Shown here in pieces: positions 46,276-56,201 of a DNA stretch of 64,000 nucleotides. This DNA comes from Arcobacter ellisii (GTDB lineage Bacteria; Campylobacterota; Campylobacteria; Campylobacterales; Arcobacteraceae), in NCBI RefSeq assembly GCF_003544915.1, contig NZ_CP032097.1:62001-126000 (forward strand), read 5' to 3'. How positions within the stretch are numbered: position 1 is the stretch's first letter; every line of letters begins with the position of its first letter. A program made the position numbers and the translations under genes. The notes beneath the pieces were generated by a model. That model worked only from the letters and a program-made list of their open reading frames with translations. It was not told the origin of the DNA and did not search any database.

Positions 46276-46938
46276 ATGAAAATTTTGTTGCTTGAAGATG
46301 ATTTTATTTTAAACGAGATAATTGAAGAACATTTAGTTTCACAAAACTATGAAGTTGTTACAACTTATAATGGAAATGAAGCCCAAGAACTTTTATATTC
46401 TCAAACTTTTGACTTATTACTTTTAGATGTAAATGTTCCCGATATAAATGGTTTTGAACTTTTAAGTGATTTAAGAGTTCAAAACATTAAAACTCCAGCA
46501 ATATTTATAACTTCACTAAATATGGCAGATGATATGCAAAAAGGTTTTGATAGTGGTTGTGATGACTATATTAAAAAGCCCTTTGAATTAAAAGAGCTTG
46601 ATTTACGTATAAACAACTTAAAAAGACTTTTTAATATTTATCCCTTAACTTTAATAAATATTTCACAAAATGTTAATCTTGACACCCAAAATCTTATGAT
46701 TATAAAAGATGAAGAAAAAATTCATATTGCAAAAAAAGAGTGTGAGGTTTTACAATATTTGATAAATAACTCAACAAAAACAGTAAGTATTGAGGAACTT
46801 AGTCTAAATCTTTGGGCATATGAAGAAACACCAAATGCTTCAACAATTAGAACATATATTAAAAATTTGCGTAAAATTTTAGGGGAAGAACAAATCTTAA
46901 ATATACGAGGAGTTGGTTATAGATTTAACAAAAAGTGA
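46276..46938 (+). CDS. OmpR-family response regulator (metal-efflux linked)
   Basis: 220 residues. Receiver domain with LLLEDDFILNE, phospho-acceptor Asp in LLLLDVNVPDINGFELL, the Lys in DDYIKKPFEL, and a winged-helix domain (about 130-219) with ASTIRTYIKNLRKIL and NIRGVGYRF. It is directly followed by its kinase and then the CusABC-like operon, so it is likely a CusR/CopR-type activator. Confidence 0.94.
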   Translation: MKILLLEDDFILNEIIEEHLVSQNYEVVTTYNGNEAQELLYSQTFDLLLLDVNVPDINGFELLSDLRVQNIKTPAIFITSLNMADDMQKGFDSGCDDYIKKPFELKELDLRINNLKRLFNIYPLTLINISQNVNLDTQNLMIIKDEEKIHIAKKECEVLQYLINNSTKTVSIEELSLNLWAYEETPNASTIRTYIKNLRKILGEEQILNIRGVGYRFNKK

Positions 46939-48067
46939 AAAAATTACTTTCTTTAGATTTCTATTTTTATATTTAGGTTCTTCATTAATTTTGATGTTAA
47001 TTACAACATTTTTTTACTATCAAAATGAAAAAACTTTATTTATTGATTTAATAAAATCAAATATGCAAAATGTAACTTCAAAAATTTCAAATGAAGTAAT
47101 TGTATCCCATATGATGGGTACAAAGTTTGAAAAAGAAAAATATCTAAATTCAAAAGAGTACAAAATATCATTTTATGATAAAAATAAAGAGCTAATTTAT
47201 GGTAATTTTAATGAAAAAGTAGATTTTAGCCAGAAATTTATCTTTGATGAGAAATCATTAATTTTAGTTGATAATTCAACAGTTGGACATCTTGGAATTG
47301 AGTATATTGTTTTAAAAGATATTAGTTTAGAAGTAAAAATTTATGAGTTAAAAGTATCTATAATTTTAATTTTTTTAGGTTTTTATTTTTTGGTTACAAT
47401 AATTGGTTTTTATCTTGCAAAGCTATTTTTAAAGCCAATAAAAGATGAAAGAATAAAGTTAAATAATTTCATAAAAGATACAACACATGAGTTAAATACT
47501 CCAATAAGTGCAATTATGATGTCAACAGAAAGTGAAAATTTATCTTTAAAACAAATAGAAAGAATAAAACTAAGTGCTAAAAGAATAAGTGAAATTTATA
47601 AAGATTTAACTTATATATTTTTAGAAAATAAAGAGATAAAAAAAGAGAAAAAAGAGCTGGATTTATCTTTGATTATAAAAGAACAGATTGATAATTTTGA
47701 ACCTTTATTTTTGAAAAAAAAGATTGAAGTTTTAACAAATTTAGAAACAACAATTTATAAAATAGATAAAGATGATTTTATTAGATTATTTAACAATCTT
47801 TTTTCAAATGCCATAAAATATAATAAAATTAATGGAAAAATTGAAATAACATTAAAAAACAGAGTTTTATCTGTAAAAGATAATGGAATAGGAATAAAAA
47901 AAGATAAATTAAAAGATATTTATAAAAGATATTATAGAGCAACAAGCCAAAATGGTGGTTTTGGTTTAGGTCTAAATATCGTAAATATGATATGTAAAAG
48001 TTATAACATAAAAATTGAAGTTAGTTCTATAGAAAAAGAAGGAACAATTTTTAAACTATATTTTTAA
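46913..48067 (+). CDS. Sensor histidine kinase (metal-efflux linked)
   Basis: 384 residues. Two transmembrane helices (about 10-30 and 145-168) bracket a periplasmic loop of some 110 residues with MMGTKFEKE; then a HisKA domain with KDTTHELNTPISAIMMS, N-box NNLFSNAIKYNK and G-box GGFGLGLNIVNM. The 5' end overlaps the regulator by 26 bases; only TTG (46913) is a standard start, but the GAGGAG box at 46907-46912 touches it, so initiation may be at a later codon such as ATA at 46919. Confidence 0.88.
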   Translation: MVIDLTKSEKITFFRFLFLYLGSSLILMLITTFFYYQNEKTLFIDLIKSNMQNVTSKISNEVIVSHMMGTKFEKEKYLNSKEYKISFYDKNKELIYGNFNEKVDFSQKFIFDEKSLILVDNSTVGHLGIEYIVLKDISLEVKIYELKVSIILIFLGFYFLVTIIGFYLAKLFLKPIKDERIKLNNFIKDTTHELNTPISAIMMSTESENLSLKQIERIKLSAKRISEIYKDLTYIFLENKEIKKEKKELDLSLIIKEQIDNFEPLFLKKKIEVLTNLETTIYKIDKDDFIRLFNNLFSNAIKYNKINGKIEITLKNRVLSVKDNGIGIKKDKLKDIYKRYYRATSQNGGFGLGLNIVNMICKSYNIKIEVSSIEKEGTIFKLYF

Positions 48068-48088: not shown

Positions 48089-48095
48089 TATTTGA

Positions 48096-48101
48096 TAAGA
48101 T
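48096..48101 (+). promoter_or_regulatory. Candidate -10 box of the CusABC-like operon
   Basis: TAAGAT, 30 bases before the ATG of the FixH/YtkA-like gene, preceded by the paired CACACAA repeats instead of a -35 box. Confidence 0.4.
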
Positions 48102-48130
48102 TTTTTCATAAATATTTCAAGGAGAAAATT

Positions 48131-48514
48131 ATGAAAAATCTTTTCAAAACAATTCTAACTTTAGTTTTAGCATTAAACTTTTTAAATGCAGAACCAATAA
48201 ATCAAAATGGTGAAAAAGATGGTTACAATGTTACTTTAACTAGTGAAAAATCACTTGTTGTTGGAGATAATGATTTTGTAATTAAGTTAGCAAAAGATGA
48301 AAAAACTATAACAACAGCAAAAGTTAAAATAAAATTTTTTATGCCAGAAATGCCAGGAATGCCTTATATGGAATATGAAGGAAAAGCTGAGTTAGTTGAT
48401 GGTGTTTATAGAACAAAAATCAATTTTTCTATGGCTGGAACATGGCAATATCAACTTAAATTTAAAACAGATGATGATGTTGTTCATACAATTAGAGGAA
48501 GCGTAAATATCTAA
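48131..48514 (+). CDS. Periplasmic FixH/YtkA-like protein with Met-rich loop
   Basis: 127 residues with a signal peptide (1-20, ending LNAEP). The remainder is a YtkA/FixH-like immunoglobulin-type domain; a loop FFMPEMPGMPYMEYEG gives Met every third residue (MxxMxxMxxM), a pattern typical of copper(I) or silver(I) ligands. I chose the ATG at 48131, with AAGGAG upstream, instead of the upstream in-frame ATG. It overlaps the TolC-like gene by one base. A copper chaperone role analogous to CusF is inferred. Confidence 0.8.
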   Translation: MKNLFKTILTLVLALNFLNAEPINQNGEKDGYNVTLTSEKSLVVGDNDFVIKLAKDEKTITTAKVKIKFFMPEMPGMPYMEYEGKAELVDGVYRTKINFSMAGTWQYQLKFKTDDDVVHTIRGSVNI

Positions 48515-49710
48515 TGTTAAAAATAATTCTAACTTCATCTTTAACTTTATCACTTTTAAGTGCAATTTCAATTGATGAATTAGTTAATTCTACATTTGAA
48601 AATAGTTATGATTTAAAAAGTGTGGAAAAATCCATAGAGGTTGCTAATCATCAAATTTCAATAGCAAAAAAATGGCAGAATCCAATATTGTCTATGGGAA
48701 TAAATGATTTATGGATAAATGATTTTAGTTCACGAAATAAAGAGGCAATGCAAGCCTCTTTTATAGGGATTTCACAAGTGATTCCAACAGGAGATAAACT
48801 TGAAATTAAAGAAAAAATTGCTTCAAAAGAGAAAAATATAAAGTTTTATGATTTTGAAGATAAGAAGTTAGAACTTGAATCAAAAATAAATGAGTTAGTT
48901 TATAATATTTTATTAGCTGAAGAAAAATATAGACTTTTGGAAAAGTTTGAAAAAAATCTAGAAAAACTTGAGAGTTTATATGGTTCTTTGTATAAATATC
49001 AAAAAGCAACACAAAATGAGATAATAAATTCTCAAATTTCAACAGTTGAGTTGAAAATACAAAAACAAAATCTAAAAAATCTAATAGATAATTCTTACTT
49101 AAAATTAGAACAAATAACATATACAAAAATAGATAAAATTGATGAGAAATTAGAGATAAAAAAAGTTGATTTATTAATTGAAAATTCTTCTCATCCAAAA
49201 TTTAAAAGTTTAGAAGAGAATTCATCAAAACAACAAAGTATAGCTGAATTAGAAAGAGCAAAAAAGATTCCAGATGTTCAAGTAAGTTTGGCATATTTTC
49301 AAAGGGATGACAAGTTTACAGATTACGTAAATATGGCTGTTTCTATTCCTCTTCCAATTTATGATACAGAAAATGTTACAAGAGTTCAGGCAAAAATGAG
49401 TGCTAATGAAACTAATGATAAATTAGAACAATTAAAACATAACTTTGATATTCAATCAAAGATTCTTAAAAATAATCTAAATAATGCTTATGAAAATTAC
49501 AATTTGATTGGTCAAAAGATAATTCCTTTAAAAGAAAAAATACAAAAAAATATTGAAACATTTAACACTTTTGATGATGTAAAACCTCAAGAGAGTATTA
49601 AAAATCTAAATGAGTTAATCACTTATCAAATAAAAGCAATTGATGAACAACAAAAATATTATGAAGCCTATTCAGGATTAATTTATTACTCAAATAAAGG
49701 TATAAAATGA
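48514..49710 (+). CDS. TolC-family outer-membrane channel protein
   Basis: 398 residues with a signal peptide (1-16). Two long helical coiled-coil halves (about 60-180 and 230-390) with the typical ISIAKKWQNPILSMG and AKKIPDVQVSLAYFQRDD stretch. It forms the outer-membrane exit of the RND pump (CusC role). Overlaps the adaptor gene by four bases (ATGA). Confidence 0.88.
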   Translation: MLKIILTSSLTLSLLSAISIDELVNSTFENSYDLKSVEKSIEVANHQISIAKKWQNPILSMGINDLWINDFSSRNKEAMQASFIGISQVIPTGDKLEIKEKIASKEKNIKFYDFEDKKLELESKINELVYNILLAEEKYRLLEKFEKNLEKLESLYGSLYKYQKATQNEIINSQISTVELKIQKQNLKNLIDNSYLKLEQITYTKIDKIDEKLEIKKVDLLIENSSHPKFKSLEENSSKQQSIAELERAKKIPDVQVSLAYFQRDDKFTDYVNMAVSIPLPIYDTENVTRVQAKMSANETNDKLEQLKHNFDIQSKILKNNLNNAYENYNLIGQKIIPLKEKIQKNIETFNTFDDVKPQESIKNLNELITYQIKAIDEQQKYYEAYSGLIYYSNKGIK

Positions 49711-50711
49711 TTAAAAAATTACTTATAATCACCCTATTTCTAACTACTGTATTAAATGCTCAAATTATTGATGCAAAACAACTATTTAATAAAAAAATTG
49801 TAAAAGTAAAAAAAGAAGAAGTTATTGAAAATAAAAGTTTTTATGGAATAACAAAGATTGATGAATCATCAATTGTTGATATTGTAAGTAGATTTGATGG
49901 TTATATTACAAATCTAAATGCCAATAAAACCTATATGAATATAAAAAAAGGAGATGTTTTATATTCAATTTATTCTGATGATATATTATCTATTCAAAAT
50001 GAGCTTCAAGTTGCAAAAGATATAAATAAAAATATCTATTCATCAACGCTTTTAAAGCTTGATAATTTTGATATATCAAAAGAGAATCAACAAAAAATTA
50101 AAGATGGAAAATTAAATAATAGTGGTTTTGTGGTTACTTCTCCTTTCAATGGAATTTTACTTCAAAAAAATATAAATAATAAAAGTGCAGTTAAAAAAGG
50201 AACTACCCTACTTCAATTAGGAAACCTTGATAAGATTTGGTTTGAAGCATCAATTTATCAAGAGGATTTGTCTTTTGTTAAAAAAGATAAAGAAGCAATG
50301 ATTTATATTGATGGATTAAATAAAATGATTAACTCAAAAGTTGATTTTATCTACCCTATTTTTGATGAAAAAAGTAAAACTGTAAATGTTAGATTTATTA
50401 TTGATAATGAAAATGGTGAGTTAATTCCAAGTATGTTTGGTAAGGTTGATATAAATATCAAAAAAGAGACTCTTTTAACTCTTCCAAAAACCGCTGTGTT
50501 AAAAAAAGCAAATAGTTTTTATGTATTTAAACCAACGTCAAATGATGAGTTTGAACCAGTGAAAATAAATGCAAAAAGAGTTGCTTCTAATAAATATCAA
50601 ATAATAAGTGGGCTTGAAGAGAACGATGAAGTTATTAATAACGCCCTATTCTTATTAGATTCAGATGCGGTTACTAATAATTTATATGAATCAGACAACG
50701 AAGATTGGTAA
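49707..50711 (+). CDS. RND efflux periplasmic adaptor subunit
   Basis: 334 residues. Signal peptide (1-18), then a short HlyD/CusB-type adaptor: lipoyl-like halves around FDGYITNLNANKTYMNIKKG and VVTSPFNGILLQKNINNKSA, a short alpha-hairpin, beta-barrel (LGNLDKIWFEASIYQEDL), and membrane-proximal domain. It lacks the long N-terminal Met-rich extension of E. coli CusB. It joins the RND pump to the outer-membrane channel. Confidence 0.88.
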   Translation: MIKKLLIITLFLTTVLNAQIIDAKQLFNKKIVKVKKEEVIENKSFYGITKIDESSIVDIVSRFDGYITNLNANKTYMNIKKGDVLYSIYSDDILSIQNELQVAKDINKNIYSSTLLKLDNFDISKENQQKIKDGKLNNSGFVVTSPFNGILLQKNINNKSAVKKGTTLLQLGNLDKIWFEASIYQEDLSFVKKDKEAMIYIDGLNKMINSKVDFIYPIFDEKSKTVNVRFIIDNENGELIPSMFGKVDINIKKETLLTLPKTAVLKKANSFYVFKPTSNDEFEPVKINAKRVASNKYQIISGLEENDEVINNALFLLDSDAVTNNLYESDNEDW

Positions 50712-50717
50712 AAAGTC

Positions 50718-53700
50718 ATGGTAGAAAATATAATTTCATATAGCGTAAGAAATAAATTTTTAGTTCTATTTTTTATTTTTATATTAACACTTGGTTCTTT
50801 TTGGGCTGTAAAAAACACAAGTTTAGATGCCTTACCTGATTTATCTCCTCCTCAAGTAATAGTTCAAGTTGAATGGAGTGGACAAAGTCCAAAAACAATT
50901 GAAGAACAAATCTCTTATCCATTGATTTCAAGTTTGATGAGTTTGCCAAATATTGAAACTGTTCGTGCAATGAGTTCATTTTCAAATGCAATGATATATA
51001 TTATTTTTAAAGATGGAACAGATTTATATGATTCAAGAAGTAGAATTTTAGAACAATTATCTACACTTCAAGGAACATTTCCAGAGGGGTCATCTGTTCA
51101 AATAGGTCCAGATGCAACAGGAGTTGGTTGGGCTTATGAATATGCATTAAAATCAAAAACAAAAAGTTTAGAAGAACTTAGAACTTTACAAGATTATTAT
51201 TATAAATTTGCCCTACTTGGAGTTGATGGAGTTAGTGAAATTGCATCAATTGGTGGGTATATAAAAAATTATGAAATAACTCTAAATCAAGACAAATTAG
51301 TTCAATATGATTTGAGTATTGATGAAATTAAAAAAGTATTACAAGCAAACAATAGCGATACTGGTGGAAGAATAATTTTAGAAAATGGATATGAACATAT
51401 TATAACTGCTCGTGGTTACTTAAAATCAGTTGTGGATATTGAAAATATTACAATCAAAACTTTAAATAATACACCACTAAAAATAAAAGATATTGCAACT
51501 GTTAATATCACTTCAACAAATAGAAGAGGAATGGCTGATTTAGATGGTGAAGGTGAAACAGTTGGAGGAATAGTAGTAGTTAGATTTGGTGAAAATCCAT
51601 ATAAAGTAATAAATGCAGTTAAAGAAAAACTAAAAACTCTAAATGTTCCTGATGTTGAAGTTGTTGAAGTTTATGATAGAAGTTCTTTGATTGATAAAGC
51701 TATAGATACATTAAAAAGAACATTGGTTGAAGAATCAATCATTGTTATGATTATTGCTGGATTATTTTTATTTCATTTTAGAAGTGCATTAATTATCATC
51801 ATAACTTTACCAATTACCGTTTTAATTAGTTTTTTACTAATGAAAGCTTTTGGTATAGGTTCAAATATAATGAGTTTAGGTGGAATTGCTATTGCAATTG
51901 GAGCAATGGTTGATGCAACTATTGTAATGGTTGAAAATGCTCATAAACATCTACAAGGAAAAGAAAATATTTCAAAAGAAGAAAGAGTAAGTATCATAAT
52001 TGAATCAGCTAAACAAGTAGGACGTCCAATATTTTTTGCATTAATACTTGTTGTAGTCTCTTTTTTACCAATCTTTGCTTTAAGTGGTCAAGAAGGAAGA
52101 CTATTTTCTCCTTTAGCATTTACAAAATCATTTGCAATGATGTGTGGAGCAATTTTATCAATAACATTAGTACCTATTTTGATGATATTTTTGATAAAAG
52201 GGAAAATATTAAAAGAGGAAGAAAATTTATTAAATAGATTTTTTATAAAACTTTATTCACCACTTTTACATCTTTCTTTAAAATTGAAATATCTAATAGT
52301 AGCAATATTTGTAGGAACTTTAGTTTTTGCTGTAACAGTTTATGAAAAGCAAAAATGGGAATTTATGCCTATGATGAATGAACAAACTTTTATGTATATG
52401 CCTGTAACTCCTTATGGAATTGGGATTGATTTAGCAAAAGAGTTAGCACAAAAAACAAATATGGTAATCAAATCATTTCCTGAAGTTGAAAGTTCATTTG
52501 CAAAAGTAGGGCGTGCTCAAACTGCAACAGATCCAGCACCACTTGCGATGATAGAAACAATAATTACTTTTAAACCACAAAATGAGTGGAGAGAAGGTAT
52601 GACATATAAAAAACTAATGGAAGAGATGGATAAAAATCTTCAAGTTAATGGACTTATAAATTCATGGACATATCCAATTCGTGGACGTATAGATATGCTT
52701 TTAACAGGAATTAGAACACCTTTAGGTATAAAACTATATGGAAATAATCACGAATTACTTGAAACTACAGCTTCAAAGATAGAACAAGCTTTAAAAAAAT
52801 ATGAAGGAACCTTATCTGTTTCAGCTGATAAAATGAATTCAGGATATTATTTGAATATTGAAATAAATGATGAAATGATTTCAAGATATGGAATAAGCAA
52901 AAAAGATGTATTAGAAGTAGTTTCATTAGGAGTAGGGGGAAGTCAAATTTCTACTTATTTAGATAAATTAGAACGATATCCTATAAGTTTAAGATTTGAA
53001 ACAACTCAAAGAGAAGATATAAAAGCTTTAGAAAATTTACAAATAAAAACAAAATTAGGTTATCAGCCATTAAGACTTTTTGCAGATTTAAAATATGAAG
53101 AAGGACCATCAGTTATAAAATCAGAAAAAGCATTAAATGTTAATTTTATTTATATTACACCAAAAGATGGCTTCTCTGCAAAACAATATAAAGATGAAGC
53201 AAATAAGATTTTAAAAGAGATAAAGTTACCAGATGGTTACTATTTTGAATGGGCAGGGCAAAGTGAATATTTAGAATCAGCAATGAAAAAGTTAACTTAT
53301 ATTATTCCAATTACTTTTATGATTATATTTATTTTAATCTATTTAGCTTTGAAAAATTTAACTTATACTTTTGTTATATTTTTTACACTTCCTTTTGCAT
53401 TAACTGGTGGAATATTCTATTTAGAATATCTAAATTTCAATATTTCTATTGCAGTTATTGTTGGATTTTTAGCTTTATTAGGTGTCGCAGCAGAGACTTC
53501 AATTGTAATGTTAGTTTATTTAGATGAAGCAATAAAAGAGTTTTATAAAAATAAAGAAGACTTTACAAATAATAATATTGTAGAAACTATATATAAAGGA
53601 GCAGTTTTGAGACTTCGTCCAAAACTTATGACTCTATTTAGTATTTTAGGAGGTTTGATTCCAATTATGTATATAAATGGCGTAGGAAGTGAAGTTATGC

Positions 53701-53819
53701 AAAGAATTGCAGCACCAATGATAGGTGGAATGGTAAGTTCAACATTTTTGACACTTATAATAATTCCTGCAATATTTTATATTATAATTTTAAAAAGAAA
53801 TAATGTTTCTACACATTAA
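50718..53819 (+). CDS. cusA: Heavy-metal RND efflux pump, CusA type
   Basis: 1033 residues, twelve membrane helices. The HME-RND signature GAMVDATIVMVENAHKHL, close to the CusA form (with the proton-relay Asp), is at about 397-414. Methionines at M611 (APLAMIET), M660 (GRIDMLLTG) and M706 (ADKMNSG) sit where, by my alignment, the three-Met Cu/Ag site of E. coli CusA lies. It pumps Cu(I)/Ag(I) from periplasm or cytoplasm to outside with CusB/CusC. Zn/Co/Ni (CzcA) is the alternative, but the Met sites favour copper. Confidence 0.9.
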   Translation: MVENIISYSVRNKFLVLFFIFILTLGSFWAVKNTSLDALPDLSPPQVIVQVEWSGQSPKTIEEQISYPLISSLMSLPNIETVRAMSSFSNAMIYIIFKDGTDLYDSRSRILEQLSTLQGTFPEGSSVQIGPDATGVGWAYEYALKSKTKSLEELRTLQDYYYKFALLGVDGVSEIASIGGYIKNYEITLNQDKLVQYDLSIDEIKKVLQANNSDTGGRIILENGYEHIITARGYLKSVVDIENITIKTLNNTPLKIKDIATVNITSTNRRGMADLDGEGETVGGIVVVRFGENPYKVINAVKEKLKTLNVPDVEVVEVYDRSSLIDKAIDTLKRTLVEESIIVMIIAGLFLFHFRSALIIIITLPITVLISFLLMKAFGIGSNIMSLGGIAIAIGAMVDATIVMVENAHKHLQGKENISKEERVSIIIESAKQVGRPIFFALILVVVSFLPIFALSGQEGRLFSPLAFTKSFAMMCGAILSITLVPILMIFLIKGKILKEEENLLNRFFIKLYSPLLHLSLKLKYLIVAIFVGTLVFAVTVYEKQKWEFMPMMNEQTFMYMPVTPYGIGIDLAKELAQKTNMVIKSFPEVESSFAKVGRAQTATDPAPLAMIETIITFKPQNEWREGMTYKKLMEEMDKNLQVNGLINSWTYPIRGRIDMLLTGIRTPLGIKLYGNNHELLETTASKIEQALKKYEGTLSVSADKMNSGYYLNIEINDEMISRYGISKKDVLEVVSLGVGGSQISTYLDKLERYPISLRFETTQREDIKALENLQIKTKLGYQPLRLFADLKYEEGPSVIKSEKALNVNFIYITPKDGFSAKQYKDEANKILKEIKLPDGYYFEWAGQSEYLESAMKKLTYIIPITFMIIFILIYLALKNLTYTFVIFFTLPFALTGGIFYLEYLNFNISIAVIVGFLALLGVAAETSIVMLVYLDEAIKEFYKNKEDFTNNNIVETIYKGAVLRLRPKLMTLFSILGGLIPIMYINGVGSEVMQRIAAPMIGGMVSSTFLTLIIIPAIFYIIILKRNNVSTH

Positions 53820-53868: not shown

Positions 53869-54447
53869 ATGAATTTTGTAACAAAAGTGACAAGTGCATT
53901 GATTTTAAGTATGGGTTTCGCAAATGCTGCTATTTATGATGTTGACGCCTCACATACAAATGTAGGTTTTACAGTAAAACATATGATGATTACAAATGTT
54001 AATGGAAATTTTGCTACTTATGATGCAAATATAGATTTTGATCCAGCAACAAAAACTTTTAAAACTTTTAGTGCTACAGTTGAAACAAATTCAATTAACA
54101 CTGGAATAGAAAAAAGAGATGACCATTTAAGAAGTGAAGATTTTTTTGCTTCAGAAAAATTCCCTAAAATGACTTTTGAAATGACATCATATAAAGCAGA
54201 TGGTGATGATGGTGAGATGAAAGGTAATTTAACAATTAGAGGAATTACTAAACCAGTTACTTTAAAAGTTGAAGATATAGGAACTATAAAAGATTTCAAA
54301 AATCAAAATAGGGTAGGATTTTCTTTAAAAGGTAAAATCAATAGAATGGATTATGATTTAAAATGGAACAAAGCTTTAGAGTTAGGTGGAGTTGCAGTTG
54401 CTGAAGAAGTAAAAATAACTGTTGAAGTTGAAGCAGTTGAGAAATAA
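53869..54447 (+). CDS. YceI-family periplasmic lipid-binding protein
   Basis: 192 residues with a signal peptide (1-20, ending NAAIY). YceI lipocalin-like beta-barrel: VDASHTNVGFTVKHMM at the start, ATVETNSINTGIEKRDDHLR, SEDFFASEKFPKMTFE and GNLTIRGITKPVTL. Family members bind isoprenoids; some are induced by stress. It is monocistronic by its own promoter and 49 bases from cusA. Confidence 0.93.
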   Translation: MNFVTKVTSALILSMGFANAAIYDVDASHTNVGFTVKHMMITNVNGNFATYDANIDFDPATKTFKTFSATVETNSINTGIEKRDDHLRSEDFFASEKFPKMTFEMTSYKADGDDGEMKGNLTIRGITKPVTLKVEDIGTIKDFKNQNRVGFSLKGKINRMDYDLKWNKALELGGVAVAEEVKITVEVEAVEK

Positions 54448-54488: not shown

Positions 54489-54812
54489 ATGAAAATTAAA
54501 TTAGCAGGTTTATTATTTGGAACATTATTAGCAACTACATCATTATTTGCAAATAACGGTTCTTGTGGTGCTGGAAAATGTGGTGGAGAGATGAAAAAAG
54601 AGATGGTTGAGAAAAAAAGTTCATCTTGTGGTACTGGAAAATGTGGTGCTAGTATGAAAGAGACAAAAAGTGCTTCTTGTGCTCCTGGAAAATGTGGTGG
54701 AGAGATGAAGAATGATATGTCTAAAATGAATAATGAGATGAAAGACATGAAAAAAGATATGAAAGAAGACGTTAAAGGTTCTTGCGGTTCAGGAAAATGT
54801 GGTTCTAAATAA
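54489..54812 (+). CDS. Secreted protein with four CxxGKCG repeats
   Basis: 107 residues. Signal peptide 1-21 (ends SLFA), then four evenly spread repeats: SCGAGKCGGEM, SCGTGKCGASM, SCAPGKCGGEM and SCGSGKCGS, all with C-x-x-G-K-C-G. Between them are Met/Lys/Glu-rich spacers; eight Cys and many Met in the mature protein. The repeats resemble the EGKCG repeats of HvfA/bufferin-type metallophore precursors, but here GKCG is preceded by A/T/P/S instead of Glu, and no DUF692/HvfB or HvfC partner is in the window. It lies after the Cus pump genes and yceI and likely binds copper. Confidence 0.8.
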   Translation: MKIKLAGLLFGTLLATTSLFANNGSCGAGKCGGEMKKEMVEKKSSSCGTGKCGASMKETKSASCAPGKCGGEMKNDMSKMNNEMKDMKKDMKEDVKGSCGSGKCGSK

Positions 54813-54820
54813 TTATTTAT

Positions 54821-54844
54821 AAAAAGCCTCTTTTGAGGTTTTTT
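54821..54844. terminator. Bidirectional terminator between the GKCG gene and the MATE gene
   Basis: AAAAAGCCTC pairs with GAGGTTTTTT (one G-U pair, TTTT loop). A-runs and T-runs flank the stem, so it serves both convergent genes. Confidence 0.7.
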
Positions 54845-56201
54845 ATATGGTTTTATTACAGATAGTTTTTAAAAGATTATTTGTATAAAAATATGCGAAA
54901 ATTGCTGCACTATAAATCATAACTAATATACCAAGCCAAAGATATATAAAATCCAATTCAAAAAGTTTTACAATCACATATGCAATTAAAAGTTTTGCAA
55001 TAATTTGTCTATATAAAGCAATATATAAAATCATTTTAGGTTGTTTTATTGCTTGTAAAGTAGATACGCAAATAAATAAAACTACATAAGCGTAAAATAT
55101 CCATATCTCAACTAATAAATATTTTATTCCAAAATCAATAACTATTGCTGTAGAATCAAATAAAGATATTAAAAATTTGCCAAAAATCGTAAGAATTAAA
55201 ATACCAATAGTAGAAAGAATAAATCCATATTTTATAGAGATTCTTAAAGTTTCAATAACTCTATCATATTTTTTTGCTCCAAAGTTGTTTGAAACAATTG
55301 TTAAAACAGCAGTGCTAAGTCCCAAAATTGGTAAAAGCATAAGTTGTTCAACTCTAAAAGCAATTCCATATCCTGCAACTGCCATTACACCATATTGAGC
55401 AACAAAATAAGTAAGTATAACTGAACCAATAGACATAATAAGCATATTTAAACTAGAAGGAATTCCTTGAGTTAAAAATAGTTTATAGACTCTTAAATCG
55501 GGTAAAAAATATGAAAGTTTTTCAAAATGAATAACTTTTGTTTGTAAGACTTTATAAAACATATAAATCATATTTATTATTTGAATTAAAACAGTAGCAA
55601 ATGAAATACCTGATAGTCCCATTGCTGGAATAAATAAAAAACCAAACATAAACAATGGATTTAGAACTAAGTTAGCAAAGAAACCAAATATCAAAGTATT
55701 TCTATATGTTTTTGTATCTCCTAAAGCAACTAAAATAGAGTTTAGGGAAAAATTAAACATAAAAAATATTGTTCCAAATAAAATAGGATTTATATAAGTA
55801 ATTGCATCTTGTAAATACTCATCTTTTGCACCAAGTAATACAAACATAGACGGAGCAAAAATATAACCCAAAATAGTAAGAAAAACACCAAGTATAGGAA
55901 TAAAAAGTAAACCTTTATGTGCATAAATAGATGCTTGTTTATTTTTTCTTTTACCAAAAGAGTTTCCTAGTATTGCAGTTATAGCTGAACTAAAACCATA
56001 TCCTAAACCAATAATTAGGAAAAATACCATAAATGATATGGTTAAAGCAGAAACAGCTTGAGTTGAGATAAATCCTGCGTAAAATGTATCTACTACATTA
56101 TATAGAGTATTAAAAAGCATTCCTGTACTTGCAGGAATTGCTAATTGTTTTAGTAAAGATGAAATATTTTCGTTTAGTAAGTTTTTTGAGTTAGTTTTCA
56201 A
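54843..56201 (-). CDS. MATE-family multidrug/toxin efflux transporter
   Basis: 452 residues with about twelve helices. NVVDTFYAGFISTQAVSALT near the start, GLSTAVLTIVSNNFGAKK in the middle, and AIAVRVEQ-like AYGIAFRVEQLMLLP are MATE hallmarks. It exports cationic compounds with Na+ or H+. Substrates unknown. Confidence 0.9.
   Translation of the reverse strand: MKTNSKNLLNENISSLLKQLAIPASTGMLFNTLYNVVDTFYAGFISTQAVSALTISFMVFFLIIGLGYGFSSAITAILGNSFGKRKNKQASIYAHKGLLFIPILGVFLTILGYIFAPSMFVLLGAKDEYLQDAITYINPILFGTIFFMFNFSLNSILVALGDTKTYRNTLIFGFFANLVLNPLFMFGFLFIPAMGLSGISFATVLIQIINMIYMFYKVLQTKVIHFEKLSYFLPDLRVYKLFLTQGIPSSLNMLIMSIGSVILTYFVAQYGVMAVAGYGIAFRVEQLMLLPILGLSTAVLTIVSNNFGAKKYDRVIETLRISIKYGFILSTIGILILTIFGKFLISLFDSTAIVIDFGIKYLLVEIWIFYAYVVLFICVSTLQAIKQPKMILYIALYRQIIAKLLIAYVIVKLFELDFIYLWLGILVMIYSAAIFAYFYTNNLLKTICNKTI

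Follow-up and report, generated by a model that had tools for sequence, protein, structure and literature searches.

The small, probably secreted protein encoded by what is probably the final gene of a Cus-type copper-efflux operon in Arcobacter ellisii is by descent, as judged from its sequence and gene neighborhood, an HvfA/captophorin-type precursor that stands without its enzymes. We propose, with a probability of roughly 0.55, that it serves as an MNIO-independent periplasmic thiol/thioether buffer for Cu(I), the precursor having been kept while the MNIO and its HvfC-like partner are missing. In such a mechanism, the precursor would be retained as the end gene of the Cus operon and exported by the Sec route to the periplasm; there its four CX4C thiol pairs and Met-rich spacers would sequester Cu(I) pending its removal by the CusA pump. 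Since no MNIO gene was found, the cysteines are presumably not converted to MNIO-type thiooxazoles in this organism, a view of the chemistry that is drawn from gene content. Below, the window is the whole stretch of DNA analyzed (64,000 nucleotides of contig NZ_CP032097.1); G000 is its genome, other G numbers are genomes of relatives, g numbers are genera and L numbers are loci.

The GKCG-repeat protein and its Cus-type operon

The open reading frame of the initial annotation, with four CxxGKCG repeats, eight cysteines, a Sec-like N-terminus and Met-rich spacers, was confirmed (Table 1). The eight cysteines all fall within the four C-x-x-G-K-C-G units, and the spacers between them are rich in Met and Lys. 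The protein scores 27 bits against NF050137, the NCBIfam HvfA-family KCG repeat domain (curated cut-off 19.5), and 19.1 bits against NF050188, the whole-protein HvfA equivalog, for which the cut-off is 95. It is not a chance frame, because it passes the NF050137 cut-off and a 13-row GKCG profile finds matches in 55 of the 104 genomes of the family. A single-sequence search gave homologues in 21 of 60 relatives, its own genome included. Scanning the contigs of named genomes yielded 53 GKCG loci, including those of Arcobacter caeni, Aliarcobacter MAGs, Poseidonibacter, Malaciobacter halophilus, Shewanella, Bisgaardia and Methylophaga, and blastp located an MNIO within the examined flanks of 37 of them. 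The sole Pfam match of the protein, sub-threshold at E<=1, was to SASP, and this identity was dismissed. Structure prediction of the protein alone was of low confidence (mean pLDDT 56, pTM 0.30).

Table 1. Features of the operon, the GKCG-repeat gene and the downstream boundary (window coordinates)
Feature	Position	Strand	Basis
Response regulator	46276..46938	+	PF00072 E 2.1e-24 and PF00486
Sensor histidine kinase	46913..48067	+	PF02518 E 3.1e-21
YtkA-like secreted protein (start is an internal ATG of ORF 48092-48514)	48128..48514	+	PF13115 E 2.3e-24
TolC-like outer-membrane protein	48514..49710	+	PF02321 E 2.9e-23
CusB-like adaptor	49707..50711	+	PF16576 E 6.8e-43
CusA-type heavy-metal RND pump	50718..53819	+	TIGR00914 1011 bits, cut-off 701; PDB 3t51 E 3e-286
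YceI-like periplasmic protein	53869..54447	+	PF04264 E 8.5e-47
GKCG-repeat secreted protein (HvfA/captophorin-precursor-like), 107 aa	54489..54812	+	ORF, NF050137, profile, dN/dS
Putative Sec signal peptide, residues 1-21 (core FGTL vs LGAA typical of MNIO-bearing relatives)	54489..54551	+	Inspection
Repeat unit 1, CGAGKCG	54564..54584	+	Sequence
Repeat unit 2, CGTGKCG	54627..54647	+	Sequence
Repeat unit 3, CAPGKCG	54678..54698	+	Sequence
Repeat unit 4, CGSGKCG	54783..54803	+	Sequence
Junction where relatives carry MNIO and DUF2063/HvfC-like genes	54813..54842		Synteny vs G010, G015, other genera
Intrinsic-terminator-like hairpin after GKCG gene	54818..54847	+	Terminator scan
MATE exporter, downstream locus boundary in many MNIO-bearing and MNIO-less relatives	54843..56201	-	PF01554, synteny

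The copper-operon setting proposed earlier is borne out by the CusA, CusB, TolC and two-component system genes that lie upstream on the same strand. Met is aligned in the window pump, in a PDB 3t51 alignment read by eye, at all three of the positions M573, M623 and M672, which we take to be the metal-ligand positions of E. coli CusA. The initial annotation put the GKCG gene a few hundred bases downstream of the RND operon; because only 49 bases separate CusA from YceI and 41 bases separate YceI from the GKCG gene, and a terminator-like hairpin follows, it is probably the last member of that operon. The terminator scan is weak when taken alone, as shuffled sequence would be expected to give 1.6 hairpins where two were found.

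It is unlikely that the protein buffers thiols and disulphides, or handles another metal, instead of acting on copper. CX4C pairs can form disulphides, and copper binding is deduced here; against this, the gene is the final one of a CusA-type operon whose pump has copper-type Met positions, and some loci elsewhere of the flavoenzyme described below adjoin copper-type genes, for example in G297 and G148.

Between the window and L112 of G014, CusA is 97-98% identical, whereas YceI is only 80% and the GKCG protein 74% identical; this step in identity suggests recombination near the CusA/YceI boundary.

Maturation genes and the history of the locus

The window's genome is a single contig of 2.8 Mb that is listed as 100% complete, and the genome-wide search for DUF692/HvfB and DUF2063/HvfC homologues advised in the initial annotation found neither. 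PF05114 (MNIO/DUF692) gave no match in this genome at E<=0.001 or at E<=10, and PF09836 (DUF2063, the HvfC partner) gave none at E<=0.001, a model that misses the partners of some relatives, such as that of G015. The earlier statement that the window has no DUF692 partner therefore extends to the whole genome, and the suggestion that the maturation enzyme is encoded elsewhere in it found no match in either search. At the window locus itself, blastp detected no HvfX/DoxX gene.

Across the family, PF05114 matches were found in 37 of 104 genomes, and all 37 also have a GKCG match; they include G319, which has a partial PF05114 match only. PF09836 occurs in at least 33 of the 104, a lower bound because it misses G015, whose partner is found by blastp. 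A further 18 genomes, including 13 from the window's genus, have GKCG without MNIO. In principle, an MNIO too divergent for the PF05114 model could modify the protein in trans, which we regard as highly improbable. A single model need not see every relative, and the weak partial match of G319 (C8:266692-267027, 50 bits), away from its GKCG locus, is possibly such an enzyme; however, the window's own genome has no PF05114 match even at E<=10 and no DUF2063 match, and the putative leader motif of the precursor is lost.

Synteny was compared over 60 fetched loci. In G010 and G015, of the window's genus, the gene order is YceI-GKCG-MNIO-partner-<MATE-<Hom-<AspC, as against YceI-GKCG-<MATE in the window, where only 30 bases lie between the GKCG and MATE stops. 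The order GKCG-MNIO-partner-<MATE recurs in other genera, namely in G361, G363 and G368 (g6), G310 (g34), G334, G337, G340 and G336 (g33) and G352 (g87). GKCG-<MATE without MNIO is found in all 13 MNIO-less GKCG genomes of the genus (with two GKCG genes in G017 and no YceI call in G028), and also in G192 (g31) and in G102, G318 and G319 (g29); MNIO-less G149 (g30) has its GKCG gene in another setting. The common locus, together with 61-68% identity to four MNIO-bearing orthologues in alignment A1, indicates common descent with enzyme-bearing precursors.

Since the MNIO-bearing arrangement is common to several genera, the MNIO and its HvfC-like partner appear to have been lost from this locus rather than gained by the relatives. 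A Hom+AspC tree of 34 genomes needs three changes of MNIO state, of which the starred branches force at least two, and such counts give no direction between gain and loss. In a tree of the linked Cus genes (28 own-genus genomes plus three outgroups), a group of G010, G015 and MNIO-less G028 is sister to the remaining 25, and the 13 GKCG-less genomes form one clade; from this topology, the enzyme would have been lost before the precursor, with G028 as a second loss. In a tree of the downstream genes, G010 and G015 are nested among MNIO-less species, and thus a re-gain of MNIO in these two is also possible.

The GKCG gene is under purifying selection in the MNIO-less species. The dN/dS values were 0.10, 0.12, 0.17, 0.40, 0.19, 0.29 and 0.16 in seven MNIO-less pairs of the genus, 0.19 in the MNIO-less pair G102/G318, and 0.49 and 0.14 in two MNIO-bearing pairs, where pairs share genomes and the alignments are repetitive. 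Each of the genus's 13 MNIO-less GKCG genomes retains an open GKCG reading frame containing 5-12 Cys. These frames, and dN/dS well under 1, make it very unlikely that the gene became functionless together with the loss of the enzyme and is now a drifting relic, a reading to which two observations lend something: within one clade of the genus, 13 species with a fetched Cus locus have Cus genes and no GKCG match, and the linker residues of CxxGKCG are more variable without MNIO. The locus offers a natural experiment within one genus: two species have MNIO, thirteen do not, and the precursor is kept under selection. A comparison of G010-like with window-like proteins can reveal what the modification contributes.

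The replaced Glu of the repeats had been read as placing the protein outside the HvfABC scheme; by descent, it belongs inside. Where MNIO lies directly beside the precursor, 99 of the 106 CxxGKC units, from 29 genomes, read CGAGKC. Between Cys and GKC, units from loci with MNIO have GA 99 times, GS 6 times and AA once, and units from loci without it have GA 38, GT 21, GS 3, NT 3 and AP 1. According to an excerpt of PMC13097082, FonBC still modified peptides with Glu-to-Ala changes at two of the three Glu named there, the position 6 variant was impaired in this respect, and a single modification was placed on an AKCGA variant. A missing Glu was therefore rejected as the mark of a separate system, because the MNIO-bearing relatives mostly have Ala and, by the same excerpt, Glu is not strictly required; the residue is uninformative here. 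Of the initial reading, the copper operon, the HvfA kinship and the lack of an enzyme nearby stand, and the Glu as a sign of a separate scheme falls.

The signal peptide differs as well. A putative leader motif, GAA, occurs in 26 of the 29 precursors whose locus includes MNIO and in 1 of the 18 whose locus does not, counts that are uncorrected for kinship; both independent pairs available agree with the contrast and are too few to test it. An excerpt of PMC13419390 states that modification of HvfA by HvfBC was far greater when the signal sequence was present than when it was missing, and drift of this region therefore fits a release from enzyme recognition. Under the buffer reading, loss of GAA is to be expected, because recognition is no longer selected without MNIO.

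The Met fraction is 0.104 without MNIO and 0.063 with it, a difference that is not significant with two independent pairs available; Met enrichment as compensation for the lost enzyme was set aside, as two pairs cannot support the raw difference. CxC motifs, as in metallothioneins, occur among the 48 proteins compared only in MNIO-less G026, which has an inserted CAC/CTC/CTC segment (L124), and in the tandem, lipoprotein-like GKCG paralogue of G017 (L122).

A flavoenzyme pair beside other GKCG genes

In other families of the order, GKCG genes without an MNIO are recurrently found with a set of three proteins: DoxX, a gluconate-dehydrogenase-subunit-3-like protein (GDH3, PF13618) and a GMC oxidoreductase (PF05199/PF00732). 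One DoxX protein of these clusters was scanned and passes NF050144, the NCBI HvfX model (120.8 vs 80 bits). NF050137 is insensitive as a genome probe, missing the window's own genome at E<=0.001, and therefore profile A2 was used for the order-wide GKCG counts, in which all matches are included, some of them short and possibly due to chance. In this sample of 298 genomes, GKCG is found in 83, 22 with MNIO and 61 without, so that the MNIO-less state is the majority (61/83, some profile matches being short); MNIO without any GKCG match occurs in five genomes. In all 22 genomes that have both GKCG and MNIO, the two lie within 6 kb of each other, and 35 genomes, from six family codes, have GKCG and GMC within that distance. 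No genome of the order sample has GKCG beside both enzymes or MNIO within 6 kb of GMC. The absence of GKCG beside both enzymes is limited to the order sample, since in the family set G349 carries two GKCG matches: one gene next to MNIO (C27), and another, weaker match some 0.7 kb away from GMC (C6).

GMC is present in 55 of the 61 MNIO-less GKCG genomes of the order against 4 of the 22 with MNIO, and in the window's family in 17 of 18 MNIO-less GKCG genomes (the exception is a 76% complete MAG), 19 of 37 with MNIO and 3 of 49 without GKCG; the Fisher p values, 9e-10 for the order and 0.002 for the family, ignore kinship. The six MNIO-less GKCG genomes of the order that have no GMC are G283, G249, G159, G223, G061 and G266 (57, 79, 95, 84, 99 and 65% complete). 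GMC also occurs in 14 of 215 order genomes without a GKCG match; in five of these (G246, G096, G070, G084 and G299) a missed GKCG-like or Met/Cys-rich secreted ORF adjoins the pair, and in nine it does not, one of which, G221, has an NF050137 match elsewhere in its genome. None of the 16 GKCG-less species of the window's genus has GMC, with genome reduction as a confounder.

Within one genus, the neighbors differ: G267 has GKCG-MNIO-partner-DoxX and G149 has GKCG-DoxX-GDH3-GMC. A Tat-like RR motif was found by pattern match in 48 of 50 GDH3 small subunits of the fetched loci, and the pair is therefore probably periplasmic. The window's genome has one GMC-GDH3 pair, far from the GKCG gene (GMC at C1:1110664-1112316), and GMC is likewise unlinked, being far away or on another contig, in 11 other MNIO-less genomes of the genus. 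The nearest solved relatives of this GMC are FAD glucose/fructose dehydrogenases (PDB 6a2u, E 3e-43).

A Sec-exported thiol buffer that stays unmodified could be disabled by oxidation of its thiols to disulphides, and, given GMC in 17 of the 18 MNIO-less family genomes, the protein may be modified by another enzyme. The flavoenzyme gene, found in most MNIO-less GKCG genomes, is a candidate MNIO replacement: a Tat-exported GMC with its GDH3-like subunit would take the place of MNIO/HvfC and oxidize the GKCG cysteines after export. This is the rival with most support, and still a doubtful one. The placement near GKCG of either enzyme, the opposite distributions of GMC with and without MNIO, the HvfX-type DoxX, the differing neighbors within one genus, the two GKCG matches of G349, the RR motifs and the one pair in the window's genome all favor it. 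However, GMC is unlinked from GKCG in the window's genome and 11 others of its genus, 19 of 37 MNIO-bearing family genomes have GMC as well, nine GMC genomes have no adjoining GKCG-like ORF, the nearest solved relatives are sugar dehydrogenases, and the association counts take no account of kinship. We know of no GMC activity on Cys peptides. HMFO is presumably a member of the GMC family. By an excerpt of PMC6149797, this flavoprotein oxidase oxidizes primary thiols, and an excerpt of PMC13419390 describes 5-thiooxazole formation as a four-electron oxidation of Cys; by this analogy, maturation of Cys by a flavoenzyme would be chemically not absurd.

More generally, and tentatively, the Campylobacterales GKCG proteins may have two alternative oxidative partners, the cytoplasmic MNIO-HvfC or the periplasmic, Tat-exported GMC-GDH3, acting on the peptide; we consider this possible, with the odds against it. 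If true, flavin chemistry would give the same or another copper-binding cysteine group, and the MNIO could be lost in window-like lineages because the flavoenzyme route was already present. A search of the open-licence literature for a link of GMC with DoxX and GDH3, or with captophorins, gave nothing relevant among the matches listed, and within those searches the GMC association appears undescribed. One earlier paper's main text contains no mention of Campylobacter or Arcobacter. For Arcobacter copper resistance and RiPPs, none of the titles among the matches listed concerned this GKCG protein.

Several loci are worth recording in their own right. MNIO-free clusters of GKCG, GMC and Tat-type GDH3, often with a DoxX gene that is HvfX-type where scanned, occur in other families of the order and in G149; they include L238, L239, L240, L242, L245, L265, L271 and others. 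On a betaproteobacterial contig (L191, PHCV01000008.1), GKCG, MNIO, DoxX, GDH3 and GMC stand in one directional run, the only such locus observed. In G148 (L252), a GKCG segment is fused in frame to a YtkA-like domain that adjoins GMC and GDH3, near a P-type ATPase and a two-component system, and G297 has the order GDH3-GMC-YtkA-TolC-CusB-CusA. Directly upstream of GDH3-GMC in G096, G070 and G084 (L277, L278 and L279) is a secreted-looking, extremely Met-rich, Cys-containing protein, perhaps a Met-based counterpart of the GKCG protein. In Methylophaga (L177, L190 and L193), GKCG adjoins DoxX, and blastp found no MNIO in the examined flanks.

Comparison with known systems

The window protein shares with HvfA/oxazolin, fontiphorin and the EGKCG captophorins a Sec-like signal peptide, repeated GKCG cysteines and NF050137, and its same-locus orthologues adjoin MNIO and HvfC-like genes. 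It differs from them in that its genome has no MNIO or DUF2063 match, in the replacement of Glu by Ala, Thr, Pro or Ser, and in its paired CX4C units, Met/Lys spacers and placement in a Cus operon. Like the bufferins (BufA1, with DUF2282, and BufA2), it is probably exported, Cys-rich and tied to copper; it has no DUF2282 match at E<=1, and its genome has no MNIO match. CusF is a periplasmic metal-binding partner of the Cus pump with a folded Met/Trp site. The window protein is likewise small, encoded with the pump and probably periplasmic, but it carries cysteine repeats in place of such a site and has no CusF match at E<=1. In FAD glucose/fructose dehydrogenase complexes, the small subunit carries a Tat signal and takes its partner along as a 'hitch-hiker'. 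The GMC-GDH3 pair resembles these complexes (6a2u, PF13618), yet it differs from them by clustering, in the order, with GKCG and HvfX-type genes.
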